NCBI GenBank assembly: GCA_030680175.1
Contig: JAUXWO010000054.1
Coordinates: forward strand, 1 to 45,053
Direction of reading: 5' to 3'
Length of the DNA stretch: 45,053 nucleotides
Source of the DNA: Vicinamibacterales bacterium
GTDB taxonomy: Bacteria; Acidobacteriota; Vicinamibacteria; Vicinamibacterales; UBA2999
The position numbers and the translations under genes were made by a program. This document shows positions 2,065 to 40,224 of this stretch, one piece after another; position 1 is the stretch's first letter; each line of letters begins with the position of its first letter. The notes beneath the pieces are model-generated. The model was given only the letters and a program-made list of their open reading frames with translations, was not told the DNA's origin and did not search any database.

Positions 2065-3468
2065 ATGACGCGCATTGCTTGTTGGCTGTCCCTCGGCTGC
2101 GTGCTGCTCTTCGCACCGCCGGCGCTGGCACAGGAAAGCGTGGGCGACGGCCAGCCGCCCGTGCAGGCGCGGCCCGGCGGGCCCGACGATTCGCCGAGCT
2201 CGGATGAGACGGTGGACGTCGCACGCGGCACGCGGCTCGTCATGTCGAACAACGCCGGCGAGGTCCACGTGCGCACGTGGGACCGCGATGCCGTCCGTGT
2301 CGAGGCCGTCCATGGCCCGCGCGAACGCATCGAGGTACAGGTCGCCGAGATGACCGTGCGCGTCCGTGCCCGGACGGAGCGCGGGCCACAGGGGCTCATC
2401 GACTACCGCCTCACCGTACCGCGCTGGATGCCGGTGAACCTCTCGGGCACCTACCTCGAGGCCACGGTGGAGGGCACGGGCGCCGAGGTCACCATCGAGA
2501 CCGTCCGCGGGTCGGCGCGCGTCCGTGGCGGGTCGGGCACCATCTCGGTCCGCTCGGTGCAGGGCACGGTCTCGGTCGAGGGCGCCAGCGGCCGCGTCAC
2601 CGCGAGCTCGGTCAACGAGGACATCCACCTGGCGGACCTGTCGGGCGACGTCAGCGCCGAGAGCACCAACGGCAACGTCTTCCTCCGCGGCATCAAGTCC
2701 TCGATCGTCGACGTCTCGACCGTCAACGGCCACGTCGCGTTCGAGGGCGGGGTGCAGGACAAGGGCGCGTATCGCATCACGACCCACAACGGCGACATCC
2801 GCGTGGGCCTGGGCGGGGCCGCCAACACCACCGTGTTCGTCAGGACGTTCCGTGGGCGCTTCGGCGCCGACTTCCCCGTCACGCTCCCCGAGGGGCAGGC
2901 CGGCAATCGCGGCAGCATGCGCTTCAACTTCACCCTCGGCAGCGGAAGCGCGCGGATCGAACTGCAGTCGTTCGGCGGCAACATCTTCATTGCACGCAAC
3001 GCCCTCCCGACGGACGACCGCCGTCAGCGCGGACGCGGCCTCACGCCGCCCGCACTCCCGACACCGCCCGCGCCACCACGGCCGCCCGGCGACGACTGGG
3101 ATCACGGCGATTGGACCGAGGCCGACTGGGACGGGGCGTGGGATCGCGCGTGGGATCTCACGTGGAACCACGTCGATCCGCACGGGTGGTCCGCCGAGGA
3201 GATCGGCGCCTCCGTTGAGGCCGCGATTGCGGGTGCCGACATCGACGCCACGATCGCGGCCGCGGTCGCGGGTGCCAACATCGACGCCACGATCGAGGCC
3301 GCCCTCGCGGGCGCGGGCATCTCGGCGACCATCGGCGCCGCGCTGACCGGCGTCAACGTCGGCGCCACGATCGACGCGGCCCTGGCCGGCATCAACCTCG
3401 ACGCCGTGCTCGAGGCCGCCCTCGACGCCGTCGTCGTACCCACGCCGCGCGTCCGCACGCCGCGGTAG
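2065..3468 (+). CDS. DUF4097 family secreted beta-repeat protein with C-terminal 13-residue repeats
   Basis: A Sec signal peptide (cleaved near Ala-Leu-Ala-Gln) precedes a right-handed beta-type DUF4097 region at about residues 50-310, with recurring Val-x-Val and Asn-Gly-Asn turns. A Pro-rich linker and a Trp/Asp-rich segment (about 344-377, eight Trp) follow. About five copies of a 13-residue Ala/Ile-rich repeat (core ATIxAALAGxNID) then run to near the C-terminus. AAGGAG lies 9 bases before ATG 2065 and the anti-sigma stop is 3 bases upstream, so this is the third gene of the sigma operon and a likely regulon member. The role is unknown; surface or periplasmic location is inferred. Confidence 0.85.
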   Translation: MTRIACWLSLGCVLLFAPPALAQESVGDGQPPVQARPGGPDDSPSSDETVDVARGTRLVMSNNAGEVHVRTWDRDAVRVEAVHGPRERIEVQVAEMTVRVRARTERGPQGLIDYRLTVPRWMPVNLSGTYLEATVEGTGAEVTIETVRGSARVRGGSGTISVRSVQGTVSVEGASGRVTASSVNEDIHLADLSGDVSAESTNGNVFLRGIKSSIVDVSTVNGHVAFEGGVQDKGAYRITTHNGDIRVGLGGAANTTVFVRTFRGRFGADFPVTLPEGQAGNRGSMRFNFTLGSGSARIELQSFGGNIFIARNALPTDDRRQRGRGLTPPALPTPPAPPRPPGDDWDHGDWTEADWDGAWDRAWDLTWNHVDPHGWSAEEIGASVEAAIAGADIDATIAAAVAGANIDATIEAALAGAGISATIGAALTGVNVGATIDAALAGINLDAVLEAALDAVVVPTPRVRTPR

Positions 3469-4864: not shown

Positions 4865-6166
4865 ATGCCCGCATCGACCCGCGCCCGGTCCACCGTCAGC
4901 CGCCGCGATTTCGCCCGCCTGTTCGCCGTCGGCGGGTCAGCCGCGCTCTTTTCGTCTCCGGCGTGGGCGCGCGAGGCCGGCCGGGCTCCGGCGCTGCCCC
5001 AGGGCGTGCCGGCGAGCGAGGCCGACTGGGCCGCGGTCCGCGCGCAGTTCGTGATGCCGCCGGACCTGACGGTGATGAACGCCGCGAACCTCTGCCCCGC
5101 CTCGCGTCCCGTGCTCGAAGTGCTCACGCGGGAGACGCGCTCGGTCGACGAGGACCCGTCGCCGATGAACCGCGCGCGGCTGTATCCGGAGAAGGAGCAG
5201 ACCCGCCGCGCGCTCGCCGAGTACCTGCGGGCGACGCCGGACGAGATCATCATCACGCGCAACACCAGCGAGTCGAACAACCTCGTCTCGAACGGGCTGG
5301 ACCTCGGCCCGGGCGACGAGGTGATCGTGCACGCCGACAACCACCCGAGCAACCTCCAGGCCTGGCACGCCAAGGCCACGCGCTACGGCTACACCGTCGT
5401 CGTCGTCGAGCAGCGCAACCCGCACCCGGGGATGGCGTACTACGTCGACGCCTTCACGCGCGCCATGACCCCGCGCACGAAGGTGCTGGCGTTCACGCAC
5501 CTGTCGAGCACCGTCGGCGACCTGTTCCCGGCGGCGGAGCTCTGCCGGGTGGCGCGCAGCCGCGGCGTGCTCACGCTGGTGGACGGCGCGCAGACGTTCG
5601 GCCTGCTCGACGTGGACCTGGCGGCGATGCAGCCCGACTTCTACACGGGGAGCGCGCACAAGTGGCCGTGCGGCGCGCGGGAGTGCGGGGTGCTGTACGT
5701 GCGCGCCGATGTGCAGGCGCGCCTGTGGCCGACGATCTACAGCGCCTATCCGGGCGCGACCGGCTTCTCGCGGTCGTTCGAGGGATTCGGCCAGCGCGAC
5801 GAGGCGACGATGATCGCCTTCCGCGAGGCACTGGCGTTCCAGACGACGATCGGGCGGGCGGCGATCGAGCAGCGCGCCCGGGCGCTCGCGGCACAGTTGC
5901 TGTCGGGGCTGGCCGGGCTGCCGGGCGTGCGGGTGTGGACCACGCCGACGCCGGCGCTCCATGCGGCGGTCGTGTCCTTCGTGCCGGGTACGCTCGACGC
6001 GGGGCGGCTCGCGACCGCGCTCTACGAGCGCGACCGCATCGCCATCACGACGCGCGGCGGCCAGGACCGTCCCGGCCTGCGCGTGTCCCCCCACTTCTAC
6101 AACTCCCCGGCCGAGATCGACCGCCTCCTCGCCGCGCTGGGGCGTTACCTCAAGACCGGCGTCTGA
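4865..6166 (+). CDS. Tat-exported class V aminotransferase-fold PLP enzyme
   Basis: The N-terminus has a twin-arginine signal (SRRDFARLFAVGG, then an Ala-rich hydrophobic stretch and Ala-x-Ala). The rest is a class V aminotransferase-like domain similar to isopenicillin-N epimerase and cysteine desulfurase relatives: TRNTSESNN phosphate loop, HADNHPSN, the Asp of LVDGAQTFG, and the PLP lysine in SAHKWPCG. GGTGGAGG sits 5 bases before ATG 4865. Tat export fits a protein folded with its PLP before crossing the membrane, so the reaction probably occurs in the periplasm. The substrate (amino acid or peptide) is unknown. Confidence 0.88.
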   Translation: MPASTRARSTVSRRDFARLFAVGGSAALFSSPAWAREAGRAPALPQGVPASEADWAAVRAQFVMPPDLTVMNAANLCPASRPVLEVLTRETRSVDEDPSPMNRARLYPEKEQTRRALAEYLRATPDEIIITRNTSESNNLVSNGLDLGPGDEVIVHADNHPSNLQAWHAKATRYGYTVVVVEQRNPHPGMAYYVDAFTRAMTPRTKVLAFTHLSSTVGDLFPAAELCRVARSRGVLTLVDGAQTFGLLDVDLAAMQPDFYTGSAHKWPCGARECGVLYVRADVQARLWPTIYSAYPGATGFSRSFEGFGQRDEATMIAFREALAFQTTIGRAAIEQRARALAAQLLSGLAGLPGVRVWTTPTPALHAAVVSFVPGTLDAGRLATALYERDRIAITTRGGQDRPGLRVSPHFYNSPAEIDRLLAALGRYLKTGV

Positions 6167-6170
6167 CGTC

Positions 6171-6315
6171 ACGTACGTGCAAACACGAAGGACACGAAGG
6201 ACACGAAGACGCACACAGAAGCTTCTCTCAAGGGATCCGGTGGCGAACAGGATCCATTGAATGACCTATTTCATGCGTCCTTCGTTCCCTCGTGTCCTTC
6301 GTGTTGTGTACGTGC
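6171..6315. repeat. CACGAAGG inverted-arm element, copy 1a
   Basis: The left arm starts at ACGTACGTGC and runs as three CACGAAGGA words. The right arm is their inverse (CCTTCGTG words ending GTGTACGT). Between them lies a 37-bp core (6218-6254) containing GGATCCGG, which is repeated identically in copy 1b. The element sits between the convergent aminotransferase-like and M20 genes. Confidence 0.85.
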
Positions 6316-6453
6316 TGTGAACTCGTGAAGGCCACGAAGACGCACGAAGAAGCTTCTCTCAAGGGATCCGGTGGCGAACAGGATCTCTTGAGTGAACCTC
6401 CCGTACGTTCTTCGTGGCCTTCGTGGCCTTCGTGTCCTTCGTGTTTGTACGTC
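6316..6453. repeat. CACGAAGG inverted-arm element, copy 1b
   Basis: This second copy directly abuts copy 1a in the same orientation. It has the same arms (CACGAAG words left, CTTCGTGG/CTTCGTGT words right, ending TTTGTACGT). The 37-bp core at 6349-6385 is identical to 6218-6254. Confidence 0.85.
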
Positions 6454-6464
6454 CTTCGCGTCGC

Positions 6465-12650: not shown

Positions 12651-13388
12651 ATGCCCCACGACGACGCGAAACGGAGCCGGACCCTGCGGGTGGCGACGTA
12701 CAACATCCATCGGTGCCGCGGACTCGATGGCCGGACGCTGCCCCACCGGATTGCGGCGGTACTGGCGGACATCGACGCCGATGTGATTGCGTTGCAGGAG
12801 GTGGTGGGCGCCAGCGCCCTCCGGCCCGGGCAGGCGGCGGAGATCGGCGCGGCGCTCGGCATGGGCTGGGTCATGGCGCCCACGCGGCAGCTGCGCGGCG
12901 CGCTCTTCGGTAACGTCGTCCTGGCGCGCATGCCGGTGCGCCAGCATCACCAGTACGACCTGTCGTGGAAGACGTGCGAGCCGCGCGGCGTGCAGCGGGT
13001 CGACATCGGCGTCGACGACTTCACGCTGCACCTGTACAACGTGCACCTCGGCACGTCACTCGGGGAGCGGCGCTACCAGGCGGAGCGCCTCGCGGGCATC
13101 GTGCACGACCGGCGCATCTCGGGCCCCAAGGTCGTGCTCGGCGATTTCAACGAATGGGCGCGGGGGCTGGCGACCGACGTGCTGGCGGAGCGGCTGCAGA
13201 GCATCGACCTGCGCACACACCTGAAGCGCCGCAGCACCTACCCCGGCTTCTTCCCGATCCTGCACCTCGACCACATCTACTACGAGGGCAAGGTGGAGGT
13301 GACGCGCGTCGCCCTCCCCCGCACCCGCCTGACGATGGTCGCGTCGGACCACCTGCCCCTGGTGGCCGATCTGAAGATCAGGTTCTGA
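12651..13388 (+). CDS. Endonuclease/exonuclease/phosphatase (EEP) family hydrolase
   Basis: All core EEP motifs are in order: ATYNIHRC near residue 15, ALQEV, YNVHLGT, GDFNEW, LDHIYY and the C-terminal SDHLPL. The family cleaves phosphodiester or phosphomonoester bonds with Mg; this short (245-residue) version resembles cytosolic EEP enzymes sometimes encoded near cardiolipin synthase genes. No signal peptide is present. A weak CCTGCCT / AGGCAGG stem (13395-13401 with 13429-13435) just after the stop could end the transcript. Confidence 0.9.
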   Translation: MPHDDAKRSRTLRVATYNIHRCRGLDGRTLPHRIAAVLADIDADVIALQEVVGASALRPGQAAEIGAALGMGWVMAPTRQLRGALFGNVVLARMPVRQHHQYDLSWKTCEPRGVQRVDIGVDDFTLHLYNVHLGTSLGERRYQAERLAGIVHDRRISGPKVVLGDFNEWARGLATDVLAERLQSIDLRTHLKRRSTYPGFFPILHLDHIYYEGKVEVTRVALPRTRLTMVASDHLPLVADLKIRF

Positions 13389-13533
13389 CGAGGCCCTGCC
13401 TCATAAGAACACGTGGAGCCCCGGGAGCAGGCAGGAGGTGAATCCTGCGCCTGCCCGGGTCATCCTGCACGAACGCGACATGGCGCCGCCGTCGGCCGCC
13501 GACGACCAGCCACGCAATCAGCACATCAGGGTT

Positions 13534-13797
13534 CATCCGCAGATTCCGCAGAGGACGCAGATGCCGCCCGCTGGCAGGTCCCGGGGCTGCCGGTCATGTG
13601 ACCGGCAGCCCCGGCTCGCGGCCGAAGGACGCCGGGGTGAGTGAGCCCAGGCAAGAACCGCTCACTCACGCCGGCCTCCTCAGGCCGCGAGACCGGTCGG
13701 CCACAGCCGACCGCGGGACATGACAGAGCTGCGTTCTGCCCCTCCACATCGCCGCGTCGTCTGTGGGATCTGCGTCATCTGCGCCATCTGCGGATTG
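13534..13797. repeat. CGCAGAT inverted-arm element with three inner hairpins
   Basis: The left arm (about 13535-13562) and the right arm (about 13769-13796) are inverse copies matching at roughly 25 of 28 positions and are built of CGCAGAT words. Inside are three hairpins in a row. The first is a perfect 16-bp stem with a 2-base loop (13581-13614). The second is compound: CTCGCGGCC 13615-13623 with GGCCGCGAG 13683-13691, enclosing a 16-bp stem with one mismatch, 13631-13646 with 13660-13675. The third is CGGTCGGC / GCCGACCG with loop CACA (13694-13713). No gene is visible in 13389-13956. Confidence 0.85.
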
Positions 13798-13956
13798 TCG
13801 AGAGCCCGTCAAGGAATCACTGTGACATTCCGGCCGTCGAGGCATCCCGCCTCGCAGAAACGCCCGCTCGACCGGCCGCCCGGTGGACACCACGACGTCC
13901 TCGATGTCGATTGTCCCGCTGCGGCGGGCGAGTGGACTGTCTCGACTGAAGTGGTT

Positions 13957-15246
13957 CTACCGAAGGTCATCGCCGGCCCGGGCGAGCGTCAGGTGCAGCA
14001 GGCCGAGGTCGCGCGTCCGGAACGCGGCCTCGCATGTGGCCAGGTAGTACTCCCACATGCGCACGAAGCGGTCGTCGAAGCCGAGCGCGCGCACCTCGTC
14101 GAGACGCTCGAGGAAGCGGCCGCGCCAGTCGCGGAGCGTCCGCGCGTAGTCGAGCGGGCGGTCCTCGAGGCCGATGACGCCGAGGCGCGTGTGCCGGGTC
14201 ATCACGGTGCTGATCTCGCGCAGTGACGGGAGCAGGCCGCCGGGGAAGATGTACTTCTGGATCCAGTCGCAGTGCTTCGCGTAGTCGTCGAAGCGGTGAT
14301 CCACCATCGTGATCGCCTGGAGGCCCACGCGCCCGCCCGGCGCCAGCACCTCGTCGATCTTCCGAAAGAACGCGGGCCAGTACTCGCGGCCCACCGCCTC
14401 GATCATCTCGATCGAGATGACGCGGCTGAACTGCCCGGTGACGTCACGGTAGTCGCAGAGCCGCAGGTCCACCAGGTGCTCCAGGCCCGCGGCGCGCACT
14501 CGGTCGCGTGACAGCGCCAGTTGCTCGGCGGAGACCGTGATGCCCGTCACACGGCAGCCGTAGGTGCGCGCGGCATGCATCGCGAAGCCGCCCCAGCCCG
14601 ACCCAATCTCGAGGACGTGATCCGTGGGCCCGAGGGCGAGCCGTCCGGCCCACGCCGCGAACTTCGCGGCCTGCGCGTCCTCGAGCGTGTCGGCCTCGCC
14701 CGTGTAGACCGCGCTCGAGTACGCCATCGACGGGTCGAGGAAGGTCTCGAAGAGCGCGTTACTCAGGTCGTAGTGCGCGTGGATGTTGCGGCGGCTGCCG
14801 TCGCGCGTGTTCCGGCGGAGCCGGTGCAGGAGGTCGTTCGAGAGGTTGGCCAGCCGGCTGAGCGGCGAGGCCAGCGGGAGGTGCGATTGATTGCGCAGCA
14901 CGAGCTCGACGAACCGCGCCAGGTCGTCCGTGCGCCAGTCGCCGTCCATGTACGACTCACCCGCCCCGAGGTCGCCACCGAGCGCGAACTTCCGGAAGAA
15001 GGCGTCTCGCTCGATCCAGAGCGTCGCGTGCGGCTCGGCGTCCGCGCGGCCGGCCACGATCTCCGTGCCGTCGGGCAGGTGCACCGTCACACGGCCGGCC
15101 TGCCAGCCGGCGAGCGCGTCCATGAGGCGCCGGCGCGCCATCGGCGCGACCAGCCGGTCCACCCAGCCGGGCGAGTGCCCCTGCCCGGCGCGGCCGTTCG
15201 TGCTACCGGCCGTACGGGTGGCCGCGTGTTCGTGCGAAGTCATCAT
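13957..15246 (-). CDS. Cyclopropane-fatty-acyl-phospholipid synthase family methyltransferase
   Basis: A SAM-dependent methyltransferase of the CFA synthase family: N-terminal SCP2-like region, then the conserved NIHAHYDLSNALFETFLDPSMAYSSA block, the SAM motif VLEIGSGWGGFAMHAA, and the family motif SIEMIEAVGREYW. CFA synthases methylenate double bonds of membrane phospholipid chains. ATG 15246 is chosen because GGAAGAGAG precedes it; the GTG at 15276 lacks that. It is the last gene of a three-gene leftward operon with DUF1365 and an FAD oxidoreductase. Confidence 0.92.
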   Translation of the reverse strand: MMTSHEHAATRTAGSTNGRAGQGHSPGWVDRLVAPMARRRLMDALAGWQAGRVTVHLPDGTEIVAGRADAEPHATLWIERDAFFRKFALGGDLGAGESYMDGDWRTDDLARFVELVLRNQSHLPLASPLSRLANLSNDLLHRLRRNTRDGSRRNIHAHYDLSNALFETFLDPSMAYSSAVYTGEADTLEDAQAAKFAAWAGRLALGPTDHVLEIGSGWGGFAMHAARTYGCRVTGITVSAEQLALSRDRVRAAGLEHLVDLRLCDYRDVTGQFSRVISIEMIEAVGREYWPAFFRKIDEVLAPGGRVGLQAITMVDHRFDDYAKHCDWIQKYIFPGGLLPSLREISTVMTRHTRLGVIGLEDRPLDYARTLRDWRGRFLERLDEVRALGFDDRFVRMWEYYLATCEAAFRTRDLGLLHLTLARAGDDLR

Positions 15247-15295
15247 CTCGTCTCTCTTCCGCGGCCGCGGGCTCACCCCGAACCGCCAGGTGTGA

Positions 15296-20702: not shown

Positions 20703-20876
20703 ATGGCGGAACGAAAAGCATTTCTGCTTCGGATCGATCCGGCTGTGCTGGAGGCGGTGCAGCGGTGGGCCAACGACGACCTGCGCAGCCTGAACGCGCA
20801 GGTCGAGTTCCTGCTGCGCGCCGCCGTCCGGAAGGCGGGGCGCCTGAAGACCGACGGCGAGCCGAACAAGTCGTAG
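20703..20876 (+). CDS. Small Arc-family-like DNA-binding protein
   Basis: The 57-residue product starts [40 protein letters not shown], a ribbon-helix-helix pattern: a beta strand with Leu-Arg-Ile, then two helices around Leu-Arg-Ser-Leu-Asn. Such mini Arc-like proteins are often annotated as Arc family or TA-like and occur next to SPFH genes. A GGAAG sits just before the ATG. No toxin partner is seen. It probably binds DNA as a dimer and may control the SPFH operon. Confidence 0.75.
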
Positions 20877-21020
20877 ACGTACGTACAAACACGAAGGTCA
20901 CGAAGGCCACGAAGACGCACGAAGGACGTTCTTCTCAACGATCCGGTCCGGAACCGGATCCTTGAACCTGAGACGTTGCTTCGTGCGTCCTTCGTTTCTT
21001 CGTGACCTTCGTGTTTGTCC
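20877..21020. repeat. CACGAAGG inverted-arm element, copy 2
   Basis: Arms start right after the stop codon of the Arc-like gene (ACGTACGTACAAAC, CACGAAGG words) and end with inverse words and GTGTTTGTCC. The inner core is a different sequence from copy 1 but keeps a hairpin, GATCCGGT / ACCGGATC around 20940-20960. Confidence 0.88.
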
Positions 21021-21043
21021 GTTGACTGTGGCAAGCTGATCGG

Positions 21044-21552: not shown

Positions 21553-21797
21553 TCCCGAGCGGCACTTGAATTGGCGTCGTGGAGGCCGACTTGGGACGCG
21601 CGCGTGGGCGTCAGTACGCAACGTGCGCCGCAGGGAGCGTGCGCTTTCGAGCGCCGGCGCCGTAGGCCCAGCCGCAGGGGGGCCGGGTAGGCGCGGCGCG
21701 ATGGGCGTCAGCACGAAAGCGCTCGCGGACGGAGGCGCAGGTTGCGCGCGCGCGCTCCCGGAGGCCGGAGCGACGGCAATTCAAGTGTCGCTCGGGA
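21553..21797. repeat. 245-bp element with 27-bp inverted terminal repeats
   Basis: The ends 21553-21579 and 21771-21797 are inverse copies matching at 25 of 27 positions, centred on CACTTGAATTG. The interior has no convincing gene; it contains GGGCGTCAG twice and GCGCTTTCGAGCGC-like inverted words. The right end touches the stop codon of the desaturase gene. It has the form of a MITE or a folded 3' element between two convergent genes. Confidence 0.85.
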
Positions 21798-32718: not shown

Positions 32719-32736
32719 CACAACACTCCTCTGATC

Positions 32737-32873
32737 ACGTACAAACACGAAGGACACGAAGGACACGAAGAAGAACGCGACAGGCTCAAGTCAGGGATCC
32801 CGTGAACCACCGGACTCCCTGCCTGTTGATTTCGAGCGTCTTCGTGACCTTCGTGTCCTTCGTGTTTTGTATG
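32737..32873. repeat. CACGAAGG inverted-arm element, copy 3, inside the box gene series
   Basis: Left arm ACGTACAAAC plus CACGAAGGA words (from 32737), right arm the inverse, ending TTGTATGTC. The inner part holds CAGGGA / TCCCTG in inverted order. The element occupies almost all of the gap between the enoyl-CoA hydratase and dehydrogenase genes. Confidence 0.88.
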
Positions 32874-32875
32874 TC

Positions 32876-39112: not shown

Positions 39113-40012
39113 ATGATTGAAGCTCCCTTGCAGTTCGTGCGCCCGCGTGAGCCCAAGCCCGACTGGCTGAAGGTGCGCGCGCCCGGGTCGGAGAACTACC
39201 TCCGGCTCAAGGGCATCATGCAGGACCTGAAGCTGAACACGGTCTGCGAGGACGCGCACTGTCCGAACATCGGCGAGTGCTGGAACCACGGCACGGCCAC
39301 GTTCATGATCCTCGGCGACATCTGCACGCGGGCCTGCGCCTACTGCGCCGTCGCCCACGGCAAGCCCGCCGCGCTCGACATCGACGAACCGCGCCGCGTC
39401 GGCGAGGCGGTCGAACGGATGGCGCTCAAGTACGCCGTGATCACGTCGGTGGATCGCGACGACTTGAAGGACGGCGGCGCCGGGATCTTTGCCGAGACGA
39501 TCCGCGACATCAAGACCCGGATGCCCGAGTGCCGCGTCGAGGTGCTCATTCCCGACTTCAAGGGCGAACGCGCGCCGCTCGAGACGGTGCTCGATGCGAA
39601 GCCCGACGTGCTGAACCACAACACCGAGACGGTGCCGCGCCTCTACCGCATGGCGCGATCCGGCGGGAAATACACGCGCACGCTCGAATTGCTCGACCGC
39701 GCCCGCACCTATGCCCCCACGATCGCGACGAAGACAGGGCTGATGGTCGGACTCGGCGAGGAGCCCGACGAACTCGTCCAGGTCTTCCAGGATCTGCGGG
39801 GCGTCGGCGTGTCGATCCTCACGATCGGCCAGTACCTGCGGCCCTCACCCGACCACGCCGTGATGACGCGCTACTACCACCCCGACGAGTTCAGGGACCT
39901 CAAGCGCATCGCACTCGGCCTGGGCTTCGTCCACGTCGAAGCCGGCCCGCTCGTCCGCAGCTCCTACCACGCCCACGAACAGGCAGATGCGTTTGCGGCC
40001 AGCACCAGATAG
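39113..40012 (+). CDS. lipA: Lipoyl synthase
   Basis: A radical-SAM enzyme of 299 residues that inserts sulfur at C6 and C8 of protein-bound octanoyl groups. Both cluster motifs are present: the auxiliary cluster CEDAHCPNIGEC and the SAM cluster CTRACAYC. The C-terminal RSSYHA, whose Ser ligates the auxiliary cluster, is intact. ATG 39113 is chosen (AGAGG upstream); longer frames upstream read through repeats. The stop codon is formed in an AGATAGATAG repeat. E3 and E2 of a lipoyl-dependent complex lie 2.6 kb away. Confidence 0.96.
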   Translation: MIEAPLQFVRPREPKPDWLKVRAPGSENYLRLKGIMQDLKLNTVCEDAHCPNIGECWNHGTATFMILGDICTRACAYCAVAHGKPAALDIDEPRRVGEAVERMALKYAVITSVDRDDLKDGGAGIFAETIRDIKTRMPECRVEVLIPDFKGERAPLETVLDAKPDVLNHNTETVPRLYRMARSGGKYTRTLELLDRARTYAPTIATKTGLMVGLGEEPDELVQVFQDLRGVGVSILTIGQYLRPSPDHAVMTRYYHPDEFRDLKRIALGLGFVHVEAGPLVRSSYHAHEQADAFAASTR

Positions 40013-40021
40013 ATAGATCAC

Positions 40022-40182
40022 AGATAGATGCATCTGGCGCTCTCGTGATGTCGTGATGTGGTGATCGGATGTGTGATGTCACGATCGCCAGCGCCCCACA
40101 TCAACAGATAGATCACCACGTCGGACATCCGACATTCCATCATCCGATCACCACGTCACGAGATCATCAGATGCATCTATCT
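40022..40182. repeat. GATCACCA inverted-arm element after lipA
   Basis: Left arm 40022-40080 and right arm 40124-40182 are inverse copies with scattered differences (both read AGATAGATGCATCT at their outer ends, then CTCGTGA, GTGGTGATCGGATG words). The loop region holds CATCAACAG. It fills 40013-40224 with no gene. Confidence 0.85.
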
Positions 40183-40224
40183 GGTGATCGGCGATCTATG
40201 TGGTGATCTTGTGGATCTACCTCT

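Follow-up and report, generated by a model that had tools for sequence, protein, structure and literature searches.

Terminal hairpins of the parvovirus type consist of a stem with short repeats placed around smaller hairpins, and they function as folded DNA. In bacterial genomes, the small palindromic sequences known as REPs are described as palindromes of 20-40 bp that occur singly or in pairs and carry GTAG or CGTC tags (PMC3733652, PMC3116915, PMC2817692), while the BrickBuilt element of Porphyromonas gingivalis is presented in its report as a MITE that holds tandem repeats inside (PMC4596501). The multicopy sequences of Geobacter, in the main-text account of them, comprise families that are palindromic or made of short direct repeats, many of them intergenic, with one family having inverted-repeat ends (PMC2700814, PMC2996986). 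Here we compare with these systems an element found in a Vicinamibacterales genome, whose full-length copies share one fold of three hairpins while the main hairpin varies in sequence among them.

The window copy and its family

The window, that is, the whole stretch of 45,053 nucleotides that was analysed, is one contig (C137) of a 4.98-Mb genome in 143 contigs (G000). An earlier note on this DNA had described, between two convergent genes, an element with inverted arms that holds three consecutive hairpins. Our results confirmed the arms, which agree at 25 of 28 positions (31 nt at 87% in a second measurement), as well as the perfect 16-bp hairpin and the 8-bp hairpin with a CACA loop (Table 1). 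The pairing in the region taken as a compound hairpin, with a 9-bp outer and a 16-bp inner stem, was also recovered, but it belongs to one imperfect stem with mismatches at 4 of 32 positions. A short closing stem, which the earlier note had overlooked along with the 9-bp period of the arms, encloses all three hairpins and competes in this copy with the base of hairpin A. Folding of the element gave a minimum free energy of -181.8 kcal/mol on the plus strand (z -12.3) and of -191.4 kcal/mol on the minus strand (z -11.8), and on either strand none of 200 shuffled sequences folded as well.

Table 1. Coordinates of the element and its neighbouring genes in the window
Feature	Position	Strand	Evidence or remark
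Complete element, both termini included (ATCCGCAGAT ... ATCTGCGGAT)	13535..13795	.	Loss of conservation outside 62 aligned termini; arms 25/28
Left arm: ATC and three units, CGCAGATTC, CGCAGAGGA and CGCAGAT	13535..13562	+	Arm comparison, terminus alignment
Right arm, three inverted units	13768..13795	-	Arm comparison, terminus alignment
Cloverleaf core as matched by covariance model R1 (93.9 bits, E 4.9e-14)	13576..13720	+	Copy belongs to the R1 training set
Closing stem 5' side, GTCCC	13578..13582	+	
Closing stem 3' side, GGGAC	13715..13719	+	
Hairpin A, perfect 16-bp stem (13581-13596/13599-13614)	13581..13614	+	
Central hairpin, 32-bp imperfect stem (13615-13646/13660-13691), apex GTGAGTGAGC; stem sequence nearly copy-specific	13615..13691	+	
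Hairpin B, 8-bp stem, CACA loop (13694-13701/13706-13713)	13694..13713	+	
Left neighbour gene, endonuclease/exonuclease/phosphatase family (Exo_endo_phos)	12651..13388	+	PF03372, E 1.9e-17; used in empty-site comparison
Right neighbour gene, cyclopropane synthetase family, convergent	13957..15276	-	PF02353 CMAS, E 3.9e-83

A genome search for the arms, which the earlier note had proposed as a check, placed the window copy in a dispersed family. Allowing for one mismatch, the arm pattern CGCAGATNNCGCAGA is matched 132 times in the 4.98 Mb and the reversed pattern 16 times, and the 39 loci fetched yielded 27 paired elements and 8 single arms, the single arms all lying at contig ends (L078, L079, L084, L085, L086 and L088 contained no element). 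The number of paired copies is to be read as at least 27, with some ends corrected by hand. The 28-bp ends are made of three 9-bp units, CGCRGATNN, and 62 termini, themselves selected by this motif, align to ATCCGCAGATTACGCRGATTACGCRGAT with a 9-bp period and three units; just beyond the motif conservation drops sharply to a weak RGGNYC. Full copies of at least 200 bp account for 19 of the 27 (224-334 bp), and the other 8 are short (112-178 bp) and devoid of the core, with GTCCCG and CGGGAC both kept in 4 of them. Since near-identical copies are confined to a tandem array on contig C71, no recent jump is seen within the genome.

Several further repeats were observed. Eight contig ends (C7, C14, C44, C53, C56, C71, C100 and C107) lie no more than about 250 bp from an element arm, suggesting that such elements, by their hairpins or repeats, seem to break assemblies, so that copies are probably undercounted. 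Tandem expansions of 9 bp occur inside L069, L076 and L051 (for example, a GCACGTCCC-like unit repeated about ten times in L069), as if the 9-bp step were part of the biology of the element. The string CACGAAGGNCACGAAG occurs 373 times in this genome and its reversed control 0 times. Within the window, sister elements with CACGAAGGA inverted arms and a smaller core lie at 6165-6462, 20875-21028 and 32735-32875; a long inverted repeat of GTGATG-like units, with 60-nt arms that are 80% complementary, lies at 39990-40200, and a nested inverted repeat, with 27-nt arms that are 93% complementary and inner 36-nt arms, at 21553-21797.

The cloverleaf core and the level at which it pairs

When the 27 copies were each folded alone, all 19 copies of at least 200 bp folded alike into a closing stem, hairpin A, a central hairpin and hairpin B, the order being A-B or B-A depending on the strand, with the central hairpin spanning 74-91 nt on a stem of about 33 bp. 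A loose three-branch criterion is passed by all 19 and by 19 of 190 shuffled sequences. The closing stem is mostly GTCCCGC/GCGGGAC, and the best conserved part of the 19 cores is the tip of hairpin A, GCCGGTC..GACCGGC. Conserved tips in this genome comprise GGTC/GACC in hairpin A, mostly GGCC/GGCC in hairpin B, and a central apex with GAG/CTC, this apex (often GTGAGT, ATGAGC or GAGAGC) being the shared part of the central hairpin. RNAalifold applied to a MAFFT alignment of the 19 cores gave 52 pairs, 39 of them with compensated double changes. In this alignment 92.7% of 981 cells are paired (71.0% when shuffled and 37-40% when slid), 205 cells are double-changed (60 when shuffled) and the covariation score is 0.546 (0.151 when shuffled), all of these values being favoured by a consensus structure that came from the same 19 sequences and counting related copies repeatedly; G.U occupies 16 and unpaired positions 72 of the 981 cells. 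A home-made gene finder based on codon usage, which was trained on 13 open reading frames of the window and may suit other genomes less, called no gene across any of the 38 cores given to it.

The sequence of the central stem is almost copy-specific, although some copies are clear sisters with stem agreement of up to 0.79. Its two arms agree within one copy at 0.85, while the same arm agrees between two copies at 0.53 and shuffled arms at 0.47, the first value being taken from fold-defined arms of which some (L064, L240) run into a neighbouring hairpin. After trimming the 19 central stems of this genome to their paired part, 572 of 610 columns, about 94%, are Watson-Crick, and those that are not comprise 16 A.C, 10 G.T and 12 transversions, read in one orientation; because of the trimming, the lack of gaps in this count means little. 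Among stems with at least two transitions, 5 of 7 mix both kinds, so that the balance is not due to some copies being read from the other strand. Mismatches counted instead on energy folds, which favour G.T, amount to 26 G.T and 19 A.C in the own copies and to 38 and 15 in those of other genomes (41 and 40 gap columns), and a wider alignment that overruns the central hairpin gives 25 G.T, 33 A.C and 79 gaps for the own copies and 25, 22 and 66 for the others.

In a structure that is kept as RNA, G.U is expected to be common and A.C to be rare on the working strand. Judged by this general expectation, the 610 columns do not display the tolerance of G.U over A.C that an RNA should have. The orientation of the cores shows no bias to gene strand: an apparent bias (10 ++ against 1 -- in tandem contexts) was discarded as a reflection of contig orientation, and by core orientation 4 own copies are sense and 7 antisense to their tandem neighbours, with 6 and 5, respectively, in other genomes, where orientation was that of the best model strand and is ambiguous for several copies. 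Taking the symmetric mismatches together with the absence of orientation bias, we read the pairing as kept at the DNA level, a reading that fits selection on folded DNA and arm-to-arm copying alike. The folded RNA that the earlier note had suggested, and that it tied to compensatory changes among homologues, is only partly supported: such changes occur in 39 of the 52 pairs, but the symmetric mismatch classes point to DNA-level pairing. The presence of one fold across differing letters of the main hairpin suggests a mobile element kept for its DNA shape. We also considered the stem as a guide copied from elsewhere, an idea that found no support, as all matches with E < 0.1 of the 19 stems to their own genome lie inside elements.

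Other genomes, insertion sites and candidate movers

Covariance model R1 identified 20 full-length core places in G000 (E < 1e-10 on the better strand), 19 of which are its training set; all 20 have CGCAGAT-type arms, the twentieth being one-armed and at a contig end. R1 matched 8 of 162 genomes of the order, G000 included, 5 of 396 genomes drawn from the phylum and, under laxer filters, 5 of 40 genomes of the family, with G082 as the new one; because scans of more than 40 genomes were run with stricter filters, carriers may be missed. One of the five from the phylum, G381, lies outside the order and was rejected as a carrier: its 3 matches fall at 2 places that are both plain long inverted repeats, which means that R1 can respond to other GC-rich hairpins. 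Of the cores from the order search outside G000, 15 of 19 pass the three-branch test when 6-15 flanking bases are included; these belong to six genomes (G030, G045, G067, G079, G080 and G083); those failing (L226, L234, L239 and L240) include the sole core of G010. Four of six further matches obtained with the laxer filters pass as well, and the two that fail, L280 of G082 and L286, do so, as judged by eye, by a hairpin B spanning 13 nt against the set limit of 14. The arm units, also read by eye, differ among genomes (CACAGATTT, CACCGATTA and CACGAAGGA in G080, CGCAGATT in G083 and CGCGGAGGC in G067), and some copies, such as L226 and L232, have less regular arms. The same core being framed by other 9-bp units, cores and arm sequences are interchangeable between genomes.

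Relatives of the protein encoded by the left neighbour gene come mostly from metagenome-assembled genomes labelled Acidobacteria, some of them Vicinamibacterales, and on this basis Vicinamibacterales was taken as the probable order. Among 80 fetched relatives, 8 keep the convergent gene pair according to tblastn. None of these has the element, and their two genes are separated by -5 to 99 bp when the alignments are extrapolated to the stop codons, compared with 568 bp in the window. A closer comparison is offered by copy L221 of G080, where 243-275 bp separate the aligned flanks against 4-36 bp in six congeners (G077, G078, G081, G082, G083 and G084, from coordinates), a difference confirmed base by base for G082, G084 and G078; between the same points, G079 has 74 bp against 305 in G080, and G076 has 274 against 368. 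That congeners otherwise share this gene junction but have no element in it indicates that the element inserts, with the base-exact junction lying beyond resolution at this divergence. The mobile element that the earlier note had put forward beside the RNA is supported by its dispersal in 27 or more copies whose ends are defined and by orthologous sites lacking it. Its placement between convergent genes holds for the window copy but not as a rule of the family, other copies lying in tandem or divergent gaps. Around homologues of the window's genes, a 9-bp-unit element with CACAGATGA/CGCAGATGA arms was observed directly after the homologue of the left-hand gene (L111, 6749-6905), and in L113 the corresponding gene gap, after 6738, holds a CCCCAAGA-like tandem repeat.

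Examination of the 27 elements revealed no target-site duplication (mean best repeat 1.74 against 1.95 when permuted). Not every transposon duplicates its target, and this absence therefore lowers only the assignment to a classical MITE. A RAYT, or Y1, transposase was tried as the mover and rejected, as the loci of about 3.3 kb around the three Y1 transposase genes of G000 contain no arms. All 8 carriers have Y1 genes, but so do 96 of the 154 other genomes, and short blastn matches between cores and the Y1 loci (19-37 nt, E 1e-4 to 0.005) were put down to chance in GC-rich sequence. Palindromes of the GGGGTCAG type were seen near two of the three Y1 loci (L090 at 1260-1310, 2291-2345 and 3062-3106; L092 at 276-338) and are perhaps a separate REP-like family.

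Explanations and relation to described elements

On balance we regard the family as probably, though far from certainly, a non-autonomous, MITE-like mobile DNA element with structure at the DNA level. What is kept would be the fold of one DNA strand, either as hairpins in single-stranded DNA, such as might form at a replication fork, or as an extruded cruciform. The conserved hairpin tips and the 9-bp units could then be the contact points for a protein acting in trans, whereas the long central stem would hold the shape and be free to change provided that both of its arms change together. Recognition through a folded DNA strand is the best reading of these data, from which we infer the protein contacts and a single-strand step. 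More tentatively, the family may represent a distinct class of mobile element inherited by shape and not by sequence, that is, a DNA cloverleaf whose central hairpin is re-made in each lineage, with exchangeable arms of 9-bp units and a putative enzyme that reads hairpin tips and units. One stem arm would in such a case serve as template for its partner, perhaps whenever the element transposes, and the 9-bp-armed repeats with other cores (373 matches to the CACGAAGG pattern in G000) might be parts of the same larger system.

Whether the cloverleaf was instead selected as RNA, as a small RNA or an mRNA-end element that has spread as a repeat, has to be weighed against this. The strong compensated changes, the stability of the fold and the lack of any gene called across the cores would all suit such an RNA, which we nevertheless consider unlikely, and less likely than the DNA reading: G.T does not exceed A.C, G.U is rare, the hairpin loops vary, copies show no preferred orientation towards tandem neighbours, and no sigma-70-like promoter site was seen in 13300-14050. 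Moreover, neither the window nor six copy-bearing loci contain a match to an Rfam family at gathering score, the 22 weak matches being far below the cut-offs and mostly to eukaryotic microRNA hairpins. A different objection to selection on folded DNA is that the fold is not selected at all, palindromes being renewed by mutation when template switching copies one arm onto the other while copies drift apart. The far greater likeness of arms within a copy than between copies, the symmetric mismatch classes and the uncompensated decay of the window copy (4 of 32 positions) speak in its favour, but template switching alone would not keep three hairpins and a closing stem in 19 of 19 own cores and 15 of 19 from other genomes; we judge it quite improbable as the explanation, and it may act together with that of a mobile DNA structure.

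The remaining alternatives assign the element a role in transcription or an origin outside the chromosome. Of the 18 own copies for which a gene was called on both sides, 17 lie in a convergent or tandem setting, as would be expected of a REP-like bidirectional terminator or a protector of mRNA 3' ends. Such a role is very improbable given that 13300-14050 has no terminator-like site (a GC hairpin followed by a T run), that divergent genes flank 6 of the 19 copies in other genomes and that the cores have no fixed orientation relative to the gene upstream. As for a relic of a phage, a plasmid or a replication origin, repeated units with hairpins do resemble replication origins in general, and the arm pattern by itself is present in 61 stretches from putative viral contigs, which may be misassigned bacterial DNA; a paired element is present in 20 of these 61 but the core in none, the element has no match in the phage and plasmid records searched, and no gene was called in it, all of which makes this origin extremely improbable.

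Returning to the mobile DNA element with DNA-level structure, it has several of the features by which MITEs are recognised, being short, non-coding, dispersed and bounded by terminal inverted repeats (27 paired copies, 62 termini), with empty orthologous sites. We place it by behaviour in the broad MITE kind, and within the literature searched its conserved, DNA-like fold of several hairpins, its copy-specific stems and its arms of 9-bp units were found in no described member; six strings of the arm-type repeat were likewise absent from 5.39 million open papers, and a dispersed bacterial repeat with so much compensated, DNA-like change is unusual within the literature searched. If this reading is true, the family offers a series of sequences from nature that have one DNA fold in common but little of the main stem's sequence. 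Such a series could be used to study selection on folded DNA in living genomes, the persistence of pairing in palindromes and the identity of the enzyme by which elements are moved according to shape. Model R1 serves as a tag for a family that has no Rfam entry.

Placing these results beside the systems described above, the element is like the REP/REPIN/RAYT system in being palindromic, extragenic and present in many copies, with hairpin DNA plausibly the recognised form. It differs from REPs, as their cited descriptions give them (20-40 bp), in its 28-bp arms of 9-bp units ending in ATC, in its full copies of 224-334 bp with a three-hairpin core, in the absence of its arms from the three Y1 (RAYT) loci and in the different palindrome found near two of these. 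With BrickBuilt, in the terms of its report, it shares the short, gene-less, dispersed form and the inverted ends; unlike it, the ends here are 9-bp units, no matching insertion sequence was found among the Y1 genes checked, no target duplication was found and the conserved multi-hairpin core covaries. The cloverleaf core and 9-bp arms also distinguish it from the Geobacter repeats as described in the main text, of which the supplementary alignments could show similar ones. As an analogy, with no relation claimed, the element is like the terminal hairpins of the parvovirus type, in that a stem of short repeats encloses smaller hairpins and is used as folded DNA.
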